A program made the translations under genes and the position numbers. From positions 64,811,089 through 64,875,088 of the forward strand of contig NC_080671.1 of the NCBI RefSeq assembly GCF_030247195.1: a stretch of DNA of 64,000 bases, written 5' to 3'. Below the pieces are notes generated by a model that was not told the DNA's origin, searched no databases, and saw only the letters and a program-made list of their open reading frames with translations. Positions 1 through 54,530 of this stretch are shown here, piece by piece. How positions within the stretch are numbered: position 1 is the stretch's first letter; each line of letters starts with the position of its first letter. Source of the DNA: Topomyia yanbarensis. Lineage: Eukaryota; Arthropoda; Insecta; Diptera; Culicidae.

Positions 1-1985
1 AAAGTAGATGACCCCAAACCCGAGACAACAATTTCAGGCTTTCTGTATGCGTAATACTGGTTGACCAAAATGCTTCCACAAATAATATCATTCTCGAATT
101 TGCAGCTAAAACGTCACACAGAGGTAGAGTTCTTTGACGTAGGACTACGTCTTTGTTTTCGATATGGGGGTGCTTTTTGCAAACTCTACAGAAATGGTAT
201 GTAACGAAAAGTGGTCCAATTTTAAACGAATATAATTCAGCCATTACACGATAAATTTTCAAATTTTTTGCACATATCACCCCAGAATATTTCTAAGAAT
301 GATTCCAATAGATAAACCCCAAGATTTTTGGTATCATGGCATTAAAAATTTAAATAATGTGCATCCTAGTCAAAATATCGCCCATTTACTCACAGAAGAT
401 AACGCTTTCCAAGTCCGGCACGACAGATTTGTGTACCTAGCGCGCTACGCTTCTATGAATGACGTCATCATCGACTATTTAAAGCACTGATTTAGCCGGA
501 CAAGCCCAGTTGCCTGTTGAACGGCAGGCGGAGCAGATCACTGCACTGTGTGTTTTCACAGCCAGTGTAGCTGAGTTAGATGCTTTCTTTTGTATTGTGC
601 TCGTTTCCAGCACACTTTTACGTACAATCTCGAACACAATTATTCGTACACAAAATCTCATGTACATTCGAACTCGATTTTCAAACATGGTTTACATAGT
701 GTCGTGATACTAGTTGTCTTTTTCGCTCTACCCATCATCATCAGCGTAGCCTCTTTTTGCTTTGTGCGCTTGGGTTCAATGTTTGTGACAAATGTGTAGG
801 TGGGTATATCTAATTTGTTAGCAGAGTTACCATATCCACAGATTTTTCTGCAATGTCCCATATTTTTTTTCGCAATTTTTGATCAAAGATTCTTTTTTAC
901 AGATGGCAGCTTTTTGACATTTTGATGAAAATTTCATAGATTTTAAGAAATATTGTGATTTTTCAGAAATTTATCGAAGATTTTTTTCCCGTTTCAGTTT
1001 ATCACAGATGGTAAAAAGATATTTTTGACCGAAATACACATTTCAATGTGGCATCCCTGTTTGTTAGCGGTTGCATGCGTAACCTGCATGGTAGAAATCT
1101 GTGCTTTCGTTGCGCAAAAACGAAAACTTTCTTAGCAACAAATTTACGCGGATCGATGGAAAGCACAACATTCGATCGATTCATTGTTTCATTTCCACTT
1201 CATGTGATTCATTTCCACTCAGCCTATTCTATTTTGATTCTGCTAATAGGTAATACTACAAAGCCTATTTATGAATGAATACACTGCCACTCGAAAAACC
1301 GTTGCAAAAACGAATTTAAATCCATATATATAATTGTTTTCGATTCTTGTATATTTTTAGTTTCGATATATGATTATGACCGTTGCATTCGCTACATTTG
1401 TATGCGTATTTTAGAAAAGTTACAATAATGGCAAAATATAATTAGAAAGCTTGGTCTATACATGAAATGTTATTATATCGTCTAAAATTTTATTTTTCTT
1501 AATTCTTTATCGGTCCGGGTTTTCTATCGCACACAATCGAAAAGGTTTTACAATTTTTAAAAGCTGATCTTGTGCTATTAATATTTAGTTGCAGATATTA
1601 GTTCGGTCACGATTTTCTGTCTTCTTTCTTCAAATCTTCTCAAATAAGTTTAATCGGATTCGATCACCTACTACATATGAAATGACCTGATAACCAAGAA
1701 GGTTTGGTTCAGTATGTAACATTCGATGTTGATTGGTTGTGCTTAAACTATACATAAGAAATATATTTGATTTATTATTACTCTAAATGTAATAAGAAAA
1801 TAAATATTTTACATTAAGTAGTATAGTACTACGTCTACAGTTCGTTTAACCCCATAGGGCTCCCCTTTGTAGTTTTTTAATTAAAGTAAACCAGACATAA
1901 CATCATAGACAAAAATTGTGTTTTTTGTTTATTTCTCTAGCATACGACTTACAATTTAATATTTTGAAATAATTTCGGTTCCAGA
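1..1985. other. AT-rich DNA without recognisable gene
   Basis: I see no conserved protein or RNA gene here. A 63-codon frame at 299-490 on the plus strand opens at an ATG and has a plausible amino-acid mix, but it matches no family I know and has no visible exon context. Short runs of T and A dominate the rest. Confidence 0.5.
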
Positions 1986-2488
1986 TCCTCCACGACTTCG
2001 TTTTAAGAATTCAATTCGGTCGGACCAATTTTGGACAACTAGAAAAATTTTATTCGTTCGGTGACTCTCGGACCGGTAAGTCTATCATCCCAGTCTGTGC
2101 AATGTTACGCAACAAAGAAAAGTGCTAATCCGCTTTCAAGGTTATTGTGCGTGTTCTCCACCTCTTTGAGGTTTCGGAATTTTTTTCTTTTTTTGTTTGT
2201 GCGTTATGACGGTTATTCAGCCAGCAGAACAGTGAAGCAGTGCTTATTTTTTTAAAGCCCGCCTGGATACCGTTACATTTACAACTATCGCTATATGATT
2301 ACATTCTTCATTCGTGTATCTAGTACCATCCTGCACTGGCTAGTGCACAAGTGGCTTCTCCTGACAATGGTTCACGTCAAGGCGAGATGAAAATCGAAAT
2401 GAAATCGACTCTCTAACTCAATTTATACCGCCTCAACCAAGTCGTTCGTTTTTTCCGGACTAGACATTTCTTTTAAAATCTGTTATAG
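1986..2488 (+). other. Possible 5' untranslated region of the non-LTR element
   Basis: This stretch lies directly upstream of the ORF1 remnant, is less AT-rich than its left flank, and holds no convincing coding frame. Its position and composition fit the 5' UTR and internal promoter of a non-LTR element. I cannot place the exact 5' end. Confidence 0.3.
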
Positions 2489-3123
2489 ATGTCTCGAGTT
2501 CTGACGGAGCGATATGCAGCCATTGCAGAAATATGGGAGATTTGCCCCAATAAGCTTCGGATGGTGGTAAAGAGATTGAAGCAAGCAAATGATATAGCTG
2601 GTTACGGGACCTTTACGAAGGAGTACGGACTATATGTACCAGCTAATTGTGTTGAATGTGACGGGGTCGTCACCGAATCGGTTTCGAATTGCGAGGATCT
2701 GCTGGAACACTATGTTGCCTGTTTTGAAAACCCCATGCTTCAGCCAGTGAAAATACTGAAGTGCAAATGTCAGACTCTTATCGGGTGACCTTCGCCGGGT
2801 CTGCTCTACCCAACTACCTACTCGTTGACCAAGTTCGTCTACCAGATCGTCTTTTGTGTCGTGCGTCATGAATTATACTAATTGCAAACAACTGGGACCG
2901 TAGCAGCGATAAGGCTCGTAGTGGGAAATGTATGTGAATCATGTGGATAATTCCTGTGGAAGAGATGTTGAAAAGTGTCTCTACTGTGAGGGAAAACCAC
3001 ATGATCGTACGAACAGCGCGAGGAAAAACTTCTTCTCTTCAAATACGCTCTAAGCAATATTTTGCAAAAATGGTGGTGGTGCAATTCCCTCCTGAGATCC
3101 ATCACGGACACCTTCTTCAGTAG
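2489..3123 (+). pseudogene. ORF1 (gag-like) remnant of a non-LTR retrotransposon
   Basis: This is a broken nucleic-acid-binding ORF1 of an I/Jockey-superfamily non-LTR element of mosquitoes. A first open block runs 2489-2785 and ends with KCKCQTLIG. The frame then shifts and continues around 2785-2850 as YRVTFAGSALPNYLLVDQV, a stretch I recognise from ORF1 proteins of this group. The zinc-knuckle region survives in pieces: MNYTNCKQLG near 2870 and CLYCEGKPHD near 2977-3006, with stops between them. Such ORF1 proteins bind the element RNA and form the transposition particle. At least two frameshifts and several stops make it non-functional. The 3' end runs into an inverted duplication at 3085-3239. 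The same family probably supplied the RT and RNase H pieces at 42.4-46.1 kb, but that link is inference. Confidence 0.75.
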
Positions 3124-3239
3124 ACAAGTTAGTATAGATGTTCGTATGGTCCGATGGTATAGCTAACCATCGGACCATACGAACATCTATACTAACTTGT
3201 CTACTGAAGAAGGTGTCCGTGATGGATCTCAGGAGGGAA
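3085..3239. repeat. Perfect 74-bp inverted duplication (hairpin)
   Basis: Left arm 3085-3158 and right arm 3166-3239 are exact reverse complements, separated by the 7-base loop ATAGCTA. The right arm reads in the sense direction of the retroelement; the left arm is the inverted copy. The identity contrasts with the decay of the flanking coding remnant, so the duplication is recent or is an artefact. Confidence 0.9.
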
Positions 3240-3530
3240 CGTCTTCTGCGGAGTATTGGAGATTAAAAAGAGCTATTCCTTCAATCGAATCGTCGTTTCC
3301 TCGACACCATGCATTGAATTTGTCGCTTGAGATACTAGAACTAAAGACAAATACTTTTGCATTGCCTCTGCCTACACACCCCCTAGAGCATGAGTTGGGC
3401 ACCAACGGTTTTGTGATATTGGGGAACTCCTCCCCGCACCGAGGCTTATTTTAGGTGATTTAAACTCCAACGGTACGGCATGGGATTTCCTTCATGATGA
3501 TAATCGATCTACCTCATCACGGTATGTGAA
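3197..3530 (+). pseudogene. ORF1 end / ORF2 endonuclease remnant, non-LTR element
   Basis: A plus-strand frame at 3197-3454 continues the retroelement beyond the hairpin. Overlapping its end, in another frame near 3441-3515, the peptide ILGDLNSNGTAWDFLHDDN is visible. This corresponds to the GD-N-H-G-AWG segment of the apurinic-type endonuclease domain that nicks target DNA in Jockey/I-type elements; the usual H after GDLNS/A is replaced by N here. The rest of ORF2 is missing. The frames are shifted relative to each other, so this is a fragment, not a gene. Assignment to the same element as the ORF1 piece rests on order and spacing. Confidence 0.6.
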
Positions 3531-3619
3531 ATTACACGGATTGAAGCTCAGACTAAACGCGTACCAAACGCGAATTCTCGCGGTATGCCATTCAATACCA
3601 TGGTAGTAATAGTTTGTAC

Positions 3620-3895
3620 GGGAATTTTCTGTGTGATCACGCTCTTCAACCTGTAACTCCAGAATCGCAAGCGTGATCAGAAAAAAAAATTCAACGGCAA
3701 CCGATGGGAAGGTTGTACCTTTAATTTGATACCAAACCGATTCAAGTGAGAAAAACGAGTAACATTTTTGACACACACACACGAACTTTTTTCTATCTCG
3801 ACGAACTGAGTCGAATAATATACGAGACTCGGTCCTCCGTTAAAAGGTCGGAGTGATTTCTTACCTTTCTATATAATAAGCGCAAAAAACAACGC
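3620..3895 (+). repeat. Dispersed repeat, 'CGACGAACTGAGTCGA' family, copy 1
   Basis: This copy shares blocks with 17160-17285, 49620-49790 and 49960-50295: a CTCTTCAACCYGTAACTCC block, an ATGGGAAGGTTGTACCTTT-like block, a CA-rich stretch, CTATCTCGACGAACTGAGTC, and a terminal ACCTTTCTATAT motif. Repeats of this type are very common in culicine genomes. I see no coding capacity. Confidence 0.7.
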
Positions 3896-5000
3896 AGATA
3901 TTGATTTCGCTATTTTTCATAGATATTATAATAGTTCTGTAACGAAATGTAACGCTCATTTTGATTTGTAATGACATTCACTCGGGTTTCGATCTTACCC
4001 CTTCTTGCCCTATTGTCGATTGGTCATTCAGAGCAGCGGTTTCAGAGATATGAAATTATTATGCATAAATAGTCACCAGCACGAAAGGTGGAAGAACGGT
4101 TCATTCAATATAGTTCAAATCTCATCATTACGTGATACAGCTGCTAAAGGTATTGAACGAGCAGGAATGCAAATAATTTCATTTTATTTAATTTGATCGA
4201 TATCCTTACATGCTTTTCAGTTTTGTATGATATAAGAGAAGCATTCAATTTTATTTGCAGTAAAGTCACTGCATCAATTTGAAAATCAATATAACGAAAT
4301 TCTATATGCCTAACTGACATTTATTTTAAAACTACATTCTCATTCCTTATTTTACAGAAATTCAAATAAAATTGATTCCACTGTTTTACTCAATACATTT
4401 TACATTTCACCCTAGTCTAGCGACTTAAAGGGTCAGCAGCCGTTCTCATGACACACTCGTCGTACGTACGATCCCCAGCTCGAAAGCATTATTAGTGATC
4501 AGTATGACCGTACCAGTAGCTTTGCATGGTTCTGTATACTAGCAATCGGTTGCGAAGTCAAGTTCCAGAGCGGAATGTAGCACTAAATCTGCGCTTTTAT
4601 TCGTTACACAAACAATTCAGTTACGCTTGTAACAACAATTAAATTTTTATGTTCTCTTAAAGAGTATATTCATATACGAAACAGAATTTGATTGACGCAA
4701 AGGTTTCGGAAACTTTTGTGCGTGAAAACTTAAGAAATTGGATTTTTTAAAGGTATGTTGCAATAATTTCAATGCATTTTTAATTTAAAAAAGTCATCAG
4801 TCACAAAGAACAGAAGCTAAAAATCGCCTTTTTATTGCTTTATCATACTATAATCCAACTATTTAGTAATTAGTTGCTTCCGTTGGCCTTATAGCACGCT
4901 TCCTCGATGCACTACCAGTTTTCGACCATCGACACAACGTGGAAACTTCTGTATGACAGTAGGAAAGCCCACAGTTAGAGAATTGATGTTCTTCCCCTAA
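3896..5000. other. No recognisable gene
   Basis: This AT-rich sequence has only short frames. At 4430-4570 there is a slightly GC-richer patch with the palindromic motif CGTACGTACG. I cannot assign it to a family. Confidence 0.4.
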
Positions 5001-18300: not shown

Positions 18301-18305
18301 GAATG

Positions 18306-19171
18306 CACAGTGGCGGGTCTTCAAACAAAAGTCGGACAAAACCTCAAATGTTACCTAATTTGGCTGAAAATCACAATTTAAGCTAATTTTGAGGTGCTGA
18401 GCTCATTTTTAAAATCAAAAGTCGTAAAATATTAAATGCATTTTTCCATACAGTGTCATTGAACCTTTCTTATAACTATGATCCCGTTTTCATGATAGAT
18501 TTTCCGTTACTGTTCACCAATGTCAGCAATATCATAAAAAATGAAGAACACTACTTTAAATCCATTGTATAACGTGTTGGTGTACTGTAGACTGTCTAAC
18601 TATTTTACACAAAACACCATGCGCCTGCATATCAGCAACAAAGCTTCAAAATCTCCTTAAAAAATTTTGCGCACCTAGGCGCAGAACGAGACCATGATAT
18701 TCGAAAAGTAGAGGTTATTTCACATAGAATGTATACTATGTGACCGTTCCGAAATGATTCCGAAATTTGTACAGATCACATTAGTGAAAAAAGTATTTTT
18801 GATCTGACCACCTCAAACATATTTAAACTAAAAAGTTATAGTTTCCAGCAAATTTACCAAATGTATTTTATTCACTAACCAAGTTCTTTCGTTCCCCTAC
18901 ACAATGAAACTGGTTGTGCTAAAATCGGACCAAAATCAAAAGAACAACATGCATTTGAAGTGAACAGAGCAACAGTGTTTTCGGATATGAAAATCATTAA
19001 AAAATCCGGACTTTGCTACGTTTAAACTGATGTTAAAAATCGTGTTCTTATCGAATGATCATAAAATTTTGAATATACATCATTCAATACATGAGAAATT
19101 TAGTAAAAATATAAAATATTAATATTTCAAAAATAATTTTTTGAGGTTTTGGCCAGCCTCCAGCCACTGTG
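18306..19171. mobile_element. Complete non-autonomous Transib-like element
   Basis: The element starts CACAGTG (18306-18312) and ends CACTGTG (19165-19171), its reverse complement. It is flanked by the 5-bp direct repeat GAATG (18301-18305 and 19172-19176). CAC-type heptamer ends and a 5-bp target duplication are hallmarks of the Transib superfamily, the relatives of RAG1. Inside the left end, after a 23-bp spacer, lies ACAAAACCT (18336-18344). Inside the right end, read inward, after a 12-bp spacer, lies CCAAAACCT (19152-19144). Both resemble the V(D)J nonamer ACAAAAACC. Both ends then continue CAAA. There is no transposase frame in the 866 bp, so the element would depend on a Transib transposase elsewhere. 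The superfamily call rests on ends and target duplication only. Confidence 0.75.
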
Positions 19172-19176
19172 GAATG

Positions 19177-34084: not shown

Positions 34085-34754
34085 AGTGACACTTCAACGT
34101 TCCAGCAGCCCCGCATATGGGTGGACCCTGGGAGCGCATGGTCAAGTCAGTGAAAGTCGCGATGAAAGCTGTGTCGGATAGTCCCCGTTATCCTAGTGAC
34201 GAAGTATTAGAAACGATCATGCTGCTGGCCGAAGGTGCTGTGAATTAGCTACCGTTAACCTATACTCCCCTGGAAACTGCAGATCAGGAAGCACTCACAC
34301 CAAACCACTTTCTGTTATATGGCTCAAACGGGATCAAGCAACCAGCAAGCAAACCTGCGATGACAGAAAACGTTCTTCGCGACAGCTGGAAGTTGGCCCA
34401 GCACATGGGAATCGAATTCTGGCGAAGATGGATCCGGAAATATCTCCCAATGTTGACACGGCGGGCAAACTGGTTCGATGCAGTGAAACCCCTGGAACCT
34501 GGCGATCTAGTCGTCAGAGTCGACGAACATGCGAAAAACCGATGGGAACGAGGACGTATCCTGGAAACTTTCTCGGACAAGTCCGGACAGGTGAAGCGCG
34601 CAAAAGTACAGACTGCTAGAGGTGTGTTTTCGAAACCTGCGGTAAAACTCGCTGTTCTGGACGTCATAAGCGGTAACCAGAAGTCGGATGAAACGGCTCC
34701 GAGACCGGCAACGGTCACCGATACCCCTCGTCGCGGCACGTCACTAGTGAACTA
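34085..34754 (+). pseudogene. BEL/Pao retrotransposon pol, integrase C-terminus
   Basis: The plus strand reads HFNVPAAPHMGGPWERMVKS, the conserved W-F-PP-APH-GG-WER block at the end of the integrase core in BEL/Pao elements, then one in-frame stop (near 34246, VN*LPLTYTP) and a long open stretch 34360-34754. The latter matches the C-terminal domain after integrase: LTPNHFLLYG, then FWRRWIRKYLPMLTRR (the FW-RW--EYL-L--R block), LEPGDLVVRVDE and NRWERGRI (basic chromatin- and DNA-binding tail). Integrase inserts the cDNA into the host genome. Everything upstream (gag, protease, RT, RNase H and the integrase catalytic core) is missing; the piece begins abruptly at about 34085. The frame ends at TAA 34752-34754, followed by a probable LTR. 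The minus-strand 151-codon frame here is a shadow. Confidence 0.85.
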
Positions 34755-52360: not shown

Positions 52361-52512
52361 TTATATCGCCGATCCCTTGCAAAATCAATGCGTCTAGTGA
52401 TGGAGGCAATTTTGAGAGCGCCTTTGTTTGCTGCTGCTAACGGGGAGTATTCCTTCCAGGAACTAACGAAGCGGGTCGCCGGCGACAAGCGAACTGATTT
52501 CAACGATGATCA
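52361..52512 (-). pseudogene. Histone H4 pseudogene, C-terminal part
   Basis: Minus-strand sequence near 52512-52478 reads VEISSLVAGDP, aligning with VKRISGLIYEETR of H4. The next block at nucleotide level, CCGCTTCGTTAGTTCCTGGA, aligns with the codons for RGVLKVFLE, and following bases fit NVIRDA. The end GGATCGGCGATATAA (52375-52361) fits the GFGG-stop codons. Frames are shifted and the N-terminal half of H4 is missing. The histone stem-loop follows immediately, which supports a replication-dependent histone origin. The protein-level match is weak, so the H4 call rests on nucleotide alignment by eye and on the stem-loop. Confidence 0.6.
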
Positions 52513-52663
52513 ATAATTCAAATTGTGATAATAATTAGCGGATTTTTCTCATCGGCAAACAGATTATGCACTTTTCAGTTCCAATCAAAAAAACGAGCAT
52601 GTAAAGTCTGACAACCGAAGTGATATGGAGTTTCAATTAAAAATTCTTGCAATATAATTTATT

Positions 52664-52679
52664 GGTCCTGAAAAGGACC
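52664..52679 (-). terminator. Histone mRNA 3' stem-loop
   Basis: Minus strand GGTCCT-TTTC-AGGACC, preceded by AAACAAACCAAT as in insect histone genes. Perfect stem; it follows the H3 pseudogene copy 2. Confidence 0.9.
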
Positions 52680-52858
52680 ATTGGTTTGTTTTATCGTGGG
52701 AGGAAAATACCGTTCACTTCCGATAGCGGCGCATTTCTCACAGGGTGACAGTTCCTGTTCCGTAGCATTTGGCTTCTCAACGTCACCAGCGGTTGAGGTA
52801 CTTTCGCGGATGGTTTTCGTTGCTGTCTGCTTGCGGACGGTCTCTTTGGTACGGTCTA

Positions 52859-53241
52859 CCCGAGCAAATACTCATGGGTTCAAACACCACACAGCCCCTT
52901 GAAAAGACCATGAACATGGTCCGTGCCCACTTTCACAACCATTAAAACACCATAAAATGGTCTCAATAACCCTTATATATACCAACGTATGGTTTTTCTA
53001 TGGGATCTACCGGACCATGACGATAGTGTTTTTGTGGGCTGAACCCATTTCAAACACCCATGCCTAAGCTGACCAATTCTGACAAAAAAATCCGTACACC
53101 ATACCGCAATGAAGCAAAATTGTTCATCACGCTCAGGCAAACGGTTTTCATAGTGTACGGATTTTTTCGTCAGAGTTGGTCAGCTTACCCATGCCCAACC
53201 CCATGAGTATGAGGGTATTATGGACTTTACGTTTGCTCGGG
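52859..53241. mobile_element. TA-flanked MITE inserted in the H3 pseudogene
   Basis: Ends CCCGAGCAAA (52859) and TTTGCTCGGG (53241) are inverted repeats flanked by TA (52857-52858, 53242-53243). Removing it rejoins the H3 reading. The interior has ACCATG/CATGGT-rich wording and carries another MITE at 53067-53185. Non-coding. Confidence 0.8.
53067..53185. mobile_element. 119-bp AGCTGACCAA MITE (nested)
   Basis: Ends AGCTGACCAA (53067) and TTGGTCAGCT (53185), each flanked by TA (53065-53066, 53186-53187), are part of inverted repeats of about 32 bp reaching AAAAAAATCCGTACAC. Related pieces occur at 28578 and 33490. Confidence 0.85.
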
Positions 53242-53250
53242 TATGGCACG

Positions 53251-53400
53251 GAAATTACTGCTATTCTGGTGTACAACGAATGATGAGAAATCCGACCGAC
53301 CAATATTTACGCGCGAATATGCACTACTATCACTCTCTTGCTCGCTCATTTTCATTTATTTCTGTTACTAACACTAGCATAACCTAAACGAATACGCGTC
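53251..53400 (-). promoter_or_regulatory. Possible relict histone H3 promoter
   Basis: Upstream of the H3 copy 2 start, in minus sense, lie CGTAAATATTGG (weak TATA-like, near 53310) and a GAGCGAGCAAGAGAGTGATA block (53333-53352), then GTAGTGCATATTCG. The GAGCGAG-AGAGTGATAGTAG block recurs inside H3 copy 1 at 42246-42272. The promoter role is inference. Confidence 0.3.
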
Positions 53401-53599
53401 TTTTCCCCACCATCCATTTAGTGAACAGTGTTGCCAAACGCATTTTCAGCGTTCTATTAATAAAATTTCAACAATATTTTCAAAGAATGTTGCAGATTTG
53501 AAAAGAAGAAAACTAGTTGACGATGGAAAACAATTCCCAATTTTAATATTTTAATTTTAATTTCTTAACCATAATTATTATAACGCATCATTTGAAAAT

Positions 53600-53718
53600 T
53601 TTCACCCATGGACAACAGTTCAATTCGGAAATAGAGAGCAGAAATCAGCAGCATCCAACGAGAATCGAATCCAGCGCATCATTCGCCAAAGCGAACATGA
53701 ACGGTCCTTTTCAGGACC
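53600..53718 (+). pseudogene. Histone H3 C-terminal remnant with stem-loop
   Basis: The plus strand near 53655-53697 reads, in one frame, NRIQRIIRQSEH then stop-like sequence. The nucleotides ATCCAGC, GCAT, TTCG and AGCGAACATGA align with the H3 codons for IQ, RRIR and ERA-stop. A perfect histone stem-loop GGTCCT-TTTC-AGGACC follows at 53703-53718. It lies on the opposite strand to the H4 and H3 copies at 52.4-53.2 kb. The 89-codon frame from 53592 crosses it in another phase and is not a gene. The stem-loop is certain; the H3 identity is probable. Confidence 0.5.
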
Positions 53719-54530
53719 ACCATTATTTTAATAAAGAATTAATTAGAAGGCTTTTCCTTTTCCGCAAAATCCCGTTGATAACCTACATATCCATAAAAAT
53801 AATCCAGAGTGTATTCTACTTCACTCCGGTTATGTCTCTGACATTACCCACCCATTTTTAACATAGAATATGTATGCAAAGTTTTGAAGAAGCCCTTTAA
53901 AGACATTCTTCTGTGTTAGAGGTTTTAATTAGTTAAAAATTATTTTTCTTAGAGAAAATCACGCACAGAGTTTAGTTCTTTAATAAATATCCAGCTTTTA
54001 TTCTTGGTCATAGTTCTAAAAGTGCACCTAGCAAAATTTGCTGCAAATAATGGAAAACCATTGACAGATAGCAAAGAAAGACTTACGATTGTTTTTTGAC
54101 AATCCATAATGCAAAAAAGCTAGAAAAATTGTAATTTTCTATTACATTAGCCTACACAACTTTTTCTGAATATTTCATATCATATGGTTTTAGGTCTCTC
54201 CCCCGAAGATTTCGTAACCAACGAAATATGGCAATCTAACTACAAAGATTGCTAGTGGTTAGCTCGAAATTACCTTATGCAATAGATGCGTCGATGTAGA
54301 TAACTAGAAATAAATAATTGTTATCAGTTTCCACATATGAATCAATTCTTAAAAAAATGTATTATTAGTAATAGCAAATTCGAGAATATTGTATTAGAAA
54401 TATCACTTCTCTCTTTTAAGAGGACTACATCTAGATTTCATATAAACAAAGCTCGATTAAAATAAAAGCACTTAACAACTTATTCATCCTGAATTTCTTT
54501 CTTGAGGCCAATTCCAAAATTTGCTTTATA
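53719..54530. other. No recognisable gene
   Basis: AT-rich; I see no repeat end or motif that I can name. Confidence 0.4.

Follow-up and report, generated by a model that had tools for sequence, protein, structure and literature searches.

Elements that very probably belong to the Transib superfamily and carry no gene of their own end, in the genome of the mosquito Topomyia yanbarensis, in two unlike signals: a CACAGTG heptamer with a nonamer-like box starting 23 nt past it (+23) at the left end, and the same heptamer with such a box at +12 at the right end. This 12/23 asymmetry is conserved across families. A-rich boxes lie at both +12 and +23 of the left end, which can therefore be read as a 12-signal too; these elements are more fully described by 'left = 12+23, right = 12' than by 'left = 23, right = 12'.

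One such element, of the family here called F1, lies in the window, i.e., the whole 64,000-nucleotide stretch that was analysed (C2:64811089-64875088 of a 1.17-Gb genome in which three contigs are very large, at 218, 470 and 429 Mb), and its parts are given in Table 1. A sequence-only reading of the window had reported CACAGTG at both borders (reverse-complemented on the right), GAATG on either side, ACAAAACCT exactly 23 nt past the left heptamer and CCAAAACCT exactly 12 nt past the right one, together with an inner CAAAACCTCAAA common to both ends (18337-18348 and 19140-19151) at offsets that differ by 11 bp, and all of these details are borne out. The left box at +12 is an addition to that description. 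The window copy diverges by 1.0% from its nearest fetched relative.

Table 1. Features of the F1 element in the window, with their occurrence among F1 copies selected by the left or the right end.
Feature	Position	Strand	Conservation and remarks
Left target-site duplication, GAATG	18301..18305	.	Exact 5-bp duplication in 52/56 full-length F1 copies
Probable non-autonomous Transib-superfamily element, F1, 866 bp	18306..19171	+	Borders common to 37/40 left-fetched and 19/20 right-fetched loci
Left heptamer, CACAGTG	18306..18312	+	36/37 left-selected, 16/19 right-selected copies
Left proximal spacer, 12 nt	18313..18324	+	Varies among families; F1 and F2 consensus 3/12 identical, same length
Left A-rich box at +12, ACAAAAGTC	18325..18333	+	Exactly 12 nt past heptamer; 7/9 to RSS nonamer ACAAAAACC; 15/19 right-selected copies
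Left nonamer-like box at +23, ACAAAACCT	18336..18344	+	24/37 left-selected, 16/19 right-selected copies
Right nonamer-like box at +12, CCAAAACCT	19144..19152	-	37/37 left-selected, 19/19 right-selected copies
Right spacer, 12 nt	19153..19164	-	No indel in 56 copies; other sequence of equal length in F2, F3, F1b and F4
Right heptamer, CACAGTG	19165..19171	-	36/37 left-selected, 19/19 right-selected copies
Right target-site duplication, GAATG	19172..19176	.	Read in window sequence

Further F1 copies were retrieved with each end as query. A search with the left 120 bp turned up 1531 first-look candidates and scored 40 of them, and 40 loci including the window copy were fetched; the right 120 bp gave 1351 candidates, again with 40 scored, and 20 of the 31 new loci were fetched. 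Copies selected by the left end leave the right end unbiased by the search, and those selected by the right end leave the left end unbiased. Full-length copies make up 56/60 fetched loci (37/40 left-selected, counting the window copy itself, and 19/20 right-selected), four partial or interrupted loci (L022, L034, L045 and L068) having been left out. An exact 5-bp duplication was present in 35/37 left-selected and 17/19 right-selected copies, against a mean of 8.1 and a maximum of 18 for all 56 in 2000 shuffles, and 41/56 left flanks fit a CGNCG target. An element extending past the CACAGTG borders was considered and rejected, since copies end sharply and their flanks vary from copy to copy. 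A longer element, a duplication of another length, and boxes or spacings that drift among copies had been named beforehand as grounds for abandoning the original description; with differing flanks, exact 6-10 bp duplications in 0/37 left-selected copies, and conserved boxes and spacings, the description stands.

Two pairs of F1 copies at separate places (L041/L065 and L055/L056) have identical flanks and are therefore not independent, pointing to segmental or assembly duplication. At another locus, L050, a 793-aa open frame (807-3188, minus strand) lies about 200 bases past the break-off point of an F1 copy; judged by eye, it is presumably of Penelope type, with reverse transcriptase and GIY-YIG-like regions.

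Within F1, the spacing of the ends is invariant, since none of the 56 copies has gained or lost a base in its first 39 or last 28 nt. Among the 37 left-selected copies, changes number 0 in the 333 bases of the right box, 17 in the 444 of the right spacer and 615 in the 22,852 of the interior, i.e., a rate of 0.027 in the interior versus 0 in the box. At the left end, as read in the 19 right-selected copies, the two boxes have 4/171 and 3/171 changes compared with 4/228 in the spacer, such that boxes, spacer and heptamer each change at 0.018-0.023 versus 0.031 for the interior. Because the left boxes vary about as much as the left spacer and heptamer do, constraint at this end shows up between families and not within F1. 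In the 13/37 left-selected copies that lack the commoner form of the +23 box, it reads ACTAAACCT.

A second family, F2, has an end adjoining an F1 copy across CGATG at two loci (L032, 149-210, and L049, 5586-5710), as if one element had inserted at the target duplication of the other; a longer element behind the L049 neighbour was considered and rejected, the neighbour being a diverged F2 relative (77%). With the F2 left 120 bp (from L032) as query, there were 1021 candidates, of which 40 were scored and 20 fetched, and in 17/20 a right end is present and the 5 bp beyond it repeat those before the left end, which holds for these 17 by construction since the screen required both the duplication and an exact CACTGTG (L073, L085 and L092 were dropped). 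Their lengths range from 583 to 865 bp, with a consensus of 864. The F2 left end reads CACAGTG-ATCACCTTCCAT-ACAAAAGTCGG-ACAAAACCTCAAA and its right end CACAGTG-TCGCCTAGCCGG-ACAAAACCTCAAA. A third family, F3, is represented by a 1789-bp copy (L108) with CACAGTG-GATCCACTCCAT-ACAAAAACTGG-ACAAAACCTCAAA on the left, CACAGTG-GGGCCGGGCCGG-TCAAAACCTC on the right and flanks that agree at 4/5. There is also an old F1 relative, F1b (L110; about 73% to F1), whose right spacer is ACCGGCAGCTGG, and a fourth right end, F4 (ATGCAAAGCTGG), at two sites with unlike flanks. F2 and F3 combine interiors unlike that of F1 with the same end plan, and F4 has the same plan at its right end. The left +12 box of the F2 consensus is that of F1, and the F3 copy has ACAAAAACT (8/9) in this place; the left +23 box is identical in F1, the F2 consensus and the F3 copy. 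A box at 23 at one end and at 12 at the other is kept across copies and families, and the asymmetry originally proposed from a single copy is real.

Across the interior (106-795), F1 and F2 share 47.0% identity, which is background (mean 44.9% and maximum 47.5% in 30 shuffles), and their ends are homologous, since BLAST aligns them over 17-105 and 800-852 with about 77% identity. The conserved signals could then reflect common descent only, the families being sister lineages of old date in which divergence has not yet reached the ends. We regard this as rather unlikely, and common descent alone is disfavoured, because positions 20-43 of the left end, which include the boxes, are identical at 24/24 whereas the spacer of the same end (8-19) agrees at 3/12 and the next 62 bases (44-105) at 41/62 (66%). 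Against this 66% background, the probability of 24/24 is 0.00005 and that of 3/12 or fewer is 0.004. At the right end, positions 20-33 agree at 13/14 and the spacer (8-19) at 5/12.

Patterns with a free spacer extend these observations to the whole genome. CACAGTGV-N(4-28)-GGACAAAACCTCAAA (spacer free from 7 to 31) has 1448 matches, and among the 100 listed, all of them on C1, 91 are at 23, 4 at 12 and 5 elsewhere (22, 27, 27, 17 and 21); CACAGTGH-N(1-30)-ACAAAAGTCGGACAAAACC has 372 matches, with +12 in 96 of the 100 listed; both reversed controls gave 0. The right-end pattern CACAGTGM-N(5-14)-GGNCAAAACCTC (spacer free from 8 to 17; control 0) has 34 matches, all listed, which take in some shortened left ends: 21 are at 12, 9 at 17, 2 at 11, 1 at 10 and 1 at 8 (spacing matches were sorted by eye). 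As a few families supply most of the matches, the independent units come down to three left-end sequences and five right-end ones.

Among the 13/34 right-end pattern matches that lie off 12, 5 trace to one insertion and the other 8 are not so accounted for. These five are F2-end copies (L114-L118) with a spacer 6 bp shorter and one common left flank, which argues for a single insertion multiplied within a larger repeat. An F2 left-end sub-lineage with its +23 box at 17 (6 of the 9 matches at 17) was considered and rejected: since five of the six are one insertion, they offer no evidence that a spacing of 17 works. The sixth (L119) has a different flank. In a further sequence, L122 (C2:155078802-155078901; CACAGTG-AGCAAAAGTCGG-ACAAAACCTC), the box normally at +23 sits at +12; this is perhaps a left end minus about one turn, and its next bases are unlike F1 and F2.

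The resemblance of the boxes to the nonamer might be a chance outcome of A-rich DNA, and the F1 ends do score at least 6/9 at several offsets (12, 22 and 23 on the left; 11, 12 and 20 on the right), the right box of the consensus reaching 7/9 at offset 11 versus 6/9 at 12. The two 60-bp inner ends of the F1 consensus were dinucleotide-shuffled 20,000 times, with thresholds chosen post hoc: at least 7/9 at left +23 together with at least 6/9 at right +12 turned up at a rate of 0.00015, 12/23 arrangements of any kind scoring 6/9 at both ends at 0.0023, and a 12-mer common to both ends at 0.0009. Given the first of these rates and the constancy of box positions from family to family, there is very little chance that the resemblance is accidental.

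Transib transposase frames exist in the genome, and four transposase-bearing Transibs were read: T1 (L101), T2 (L103), T3 (L094 and L105) and T4 (L098 and L107). Scanning the genome with the Pfam RAG1 profile produced 308 candidates (68 scored) and, from them, 66 weak matches, none above the cut-off; on whole frames, the 25-bit cut-off is exceeded by T1 (26.6) and T4 (32.3) and missed by T2 (21). T1 (470-4973 of its locus) has a 717-aa frame that matches HzTransib (6pqn) with E 4.4e-117 and RAG1 structures weakly, with Asn replacing one Asp conserved in HzTransib. A frame of T4 matches 6pqn with E 2.4e-63 and RAG1 with E 2.3e-6, a T3 fragment is 55% identical to T4, and coding in the T3 and T4 copies is spread over several frames.

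All four of these complete Transibs start CACAGTGGTC, and they begin and end with CACAGTG, a heptamer identical to that of F1; unlike F1, they have symmetric terminal inverted repeats, of about 500 bp or more. T3 has CACAGTG-23-ACAAAAACA (8/9 of the nonamer) on both ends, a symmetric 23/23-like layout. Because T1-T4 are symmetric, the asymmetry belongs to the F families and reflects no general need of Transibs in this genome. The target duplication of T1, CGACG, fits that of F1; T2 is flanked by CGACG and AGACG (4/5), with unlike flanks at a second copy; and T3 and T4, unlike F1, have exact CATTG duplications, so that CGNCG is not universal among Transibs. In the accessible parts of the literature, CGNCG is a published target preference for some Transibs (PMC4735498), and CCANTGG, with which the CATTG of T3 and T4 is in line, is the target given for Drosophila hopper and transib2 (PMC3276498).

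The 5-bp, mostly CGNCG duplications of F1 and its CACAGTG termini, which start with CAC, resemble the RSS heptamer and are those of T1-T4, support the Transib-like identity that the sequence-only reading had assigned, T1 itself being a match to HzTransib. No transposase coding is detectable within F1: there is no frame of at least 110 aa in 18306-19171, and neither the F1 nor the F2 consensus matches the T1, T2 or T4 proteins better than E 0.31. Nor does the 866-bp element hold the convergent RAG1L and RAG2L genes of a RAG-like (RAG1L-RAG2L) transposon. It is, very probably, a non-autonomous (gene-less) member of the Transib superfamily that is mobilised in trans by a Transib transposase. Against this stand the GAATG duplication of the window copy, which does not fit CGNCG (T3 and T4 carry CATTG), and the outcome of the search for a full-length Transib with the same ends, which had been suggested with the original description: CACAGTG ends and transposases were found, but a targeted genome pattern search detected no transposase gene with F-type ends, so that the transposase moving F1 is one that we infer. 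The sole link to T1 is a 14/20 match between the F1 left block and the T1 end at a one-base shift; this is the top value among 32 shifts, the runner-up being 10, and it hints that F1 may be served by a T1-like transposase. When the F1 and F2 consensus sequences were compared as DNA with T1-type loci, even the best matches were short and weak: 34 bp at 79% (E 0.027, L102) and 14 bp (E 0.073).

Two candidate mobilisers were rejected. A GTC-type heptamer context combined with the F box gave 3 matches, all resembling mutated F1 or F2 ends, and in a 3.2-kb F3 span (C1:37537294-37540462), paired from left- and right-end pattern matches, the 1001-base piece that was compared is unlike the T1, T2 and T4 proteins and the F3 copies.

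By analogy with the chemistry of HzTransib, a transposase would nick the 5' edge of each heptamer, the flanking DNA would be hairpinned, and the blunt-ended element so released would be joined to a CGNCG target with a stagger of 5 bp. The right box, NCAAAACCTC, at +12 and the left boxes at +12 and +23 would most likely be binding sites for the transposase or a co-factor, held at a fixed phase to the heptamer, with the left pair 11 bp, about one helical turn, apart. With its extra unit the left end differs from the right one, and synapsis of a left with a right end, formally resembling a 12/23 pair, may thereby be favoured. We predict, with fair confidence, that the boxes are working sites.

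The left end consists of 12 nt, ACAAAANNNGG and then ACAAAACCTCAAA, the right end being 12 nt ending in GG followed by NCAAAACCTC. In F1, F2 and F3, the left end amounts to the right end plus one 11-bp unit, ACAAAANNNGG, and GG precedes both inner boxes. Nonamer scores on the left are 7/9 (F1 and F2) or 8/9 (the F3 copy) at +12 and 7/9 at +23; on the right they are 6-7/9 at +12 and 2-3/9 at +23. Unequal subterminal repeats are common in transposons, and this structure fits a reading, to which we give an even chance, in which the boxes are subterminal binding sites that obey no pairing rule and the left end has gained a second copy of its box. That reading leaves unexplained why a unit of one helical turn is present in all three left-end families, which common descent could account for. 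A working 12/23 rule, by which efficient cleavage requires the synapsis of a 12-type with a 23-type end, agrees with the exact spacings of 12 and 23 in three families, with a block and a spacer that diverge so unequally, and with F1 and F2 interiors at background; it is nevertheless improbable, since the +12 box of the left end leaves 12/12 pairing possible and the complete transposase-bearing Transibs are symmetric, T3 with ACAAAAACA at +23 of either end.

A simple route from a 12-type to a 23-type end is suggested by the two boxes of the left end. It is conceivable, if doubtful, that the 23-type end arose from a 12-type end by gaining the 11-bp unit, with both signals kept. If this is true and the transposase reads both boxes, F elements would preserve an intermediate between a 12/12 transposon and a 12/23 system, and for a 12/23 rule it would be enough to choose between two boxes separated by one helical turn, with no new spacer needed. 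In the openly accessible portion of the literature, we found no mention of a second, +12 box inside a 23-type Transib end.

Asymmetric Transib ends as such are already in print. The accessible parts of PMC8355894, citing its reference 8, describe 12/23-asymmetric ends for Transib5 of D. melanogaster and for Transib2, N1, N2 and N3 of An. gambiae; like F1, these elements have a CAC heptamer and a nonamer-like box, with a spacer of 23 +/-1 at one end and 12 +/-1 at the other, and they differ in that those parts do not mention a +12 box in the 23-type end, the likeness being one of description only. Such ends are known from Drosophila and Anopheles and are not first seen here, and N1-N3 are, by name, non-autonomous. 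The reference in question we take to be Kapitonov and Jurka 2005. In the accessible parts of two further papers, all Transibs of Subgroup I are asymmetric and Subgroup II includes both kinds (PMC9435367), and ends are symmetric in most Transib families (PMC8289069).

As far as the accessible text of these sources goes, HzTransib (Helicoverpa zea, 6pqn; PMC1852546) resembles F1 as a member of the Transib superfamily with a 5-bp duplication; unlike F1, it encodes a transposase and has symmetric inverted repeats with little or no similarity to the nonamer (PMC8289069). ProtoRAG and other RAG-like transposons have bipartite, unequal ends and 5-bp duplications, as F1 does (PMC8289069, PMC9435367, in the parts available), but their spacers are 27/31 and 4/13, their boxes are other ones, and they encode RAG1-like and RAG2-like proteins. 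The F1 heptamer is the consensus of the vertebrate 12RSS and 23RSS, the signals of antibody gene rearrangement, the boxes of the F ends match 6/9 to 8/9 of the nonamer, and the spacers are 12 and 23; unlike vertebrate signals, those of F1 are transposon ends, the 23-type end has an added +12 box, and a working pairing rule is improbable.

The sequence-only reading had further called the element a good natural substrate for asking when the 12/23 rule arose. That claim is weakened by the prior reports, by left boxes at both +12 and +23, and by the symmetry of T1-T4. How the 12/23 rule originated is an open question, and most Transib families are described as symmetric in the accessible parts of PMC8289069. 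Several families with exact 12/23 asymmetry, beside symmetric transposase-bearing Transibs, provide natural sets of ends for a pairing assay.

Elsewhere in the window, an Rfam histone 3' stem-loop match of 38.6 bits lies at 53698-53743 (+), and the six frames of at least 60 aa in 52500-54500 are, by eye, unlike histones. At 34249-34752 (+), a frame matches DUF5641 with E 1.2e-20, a domain known from BEL/Pao retrotransposons.
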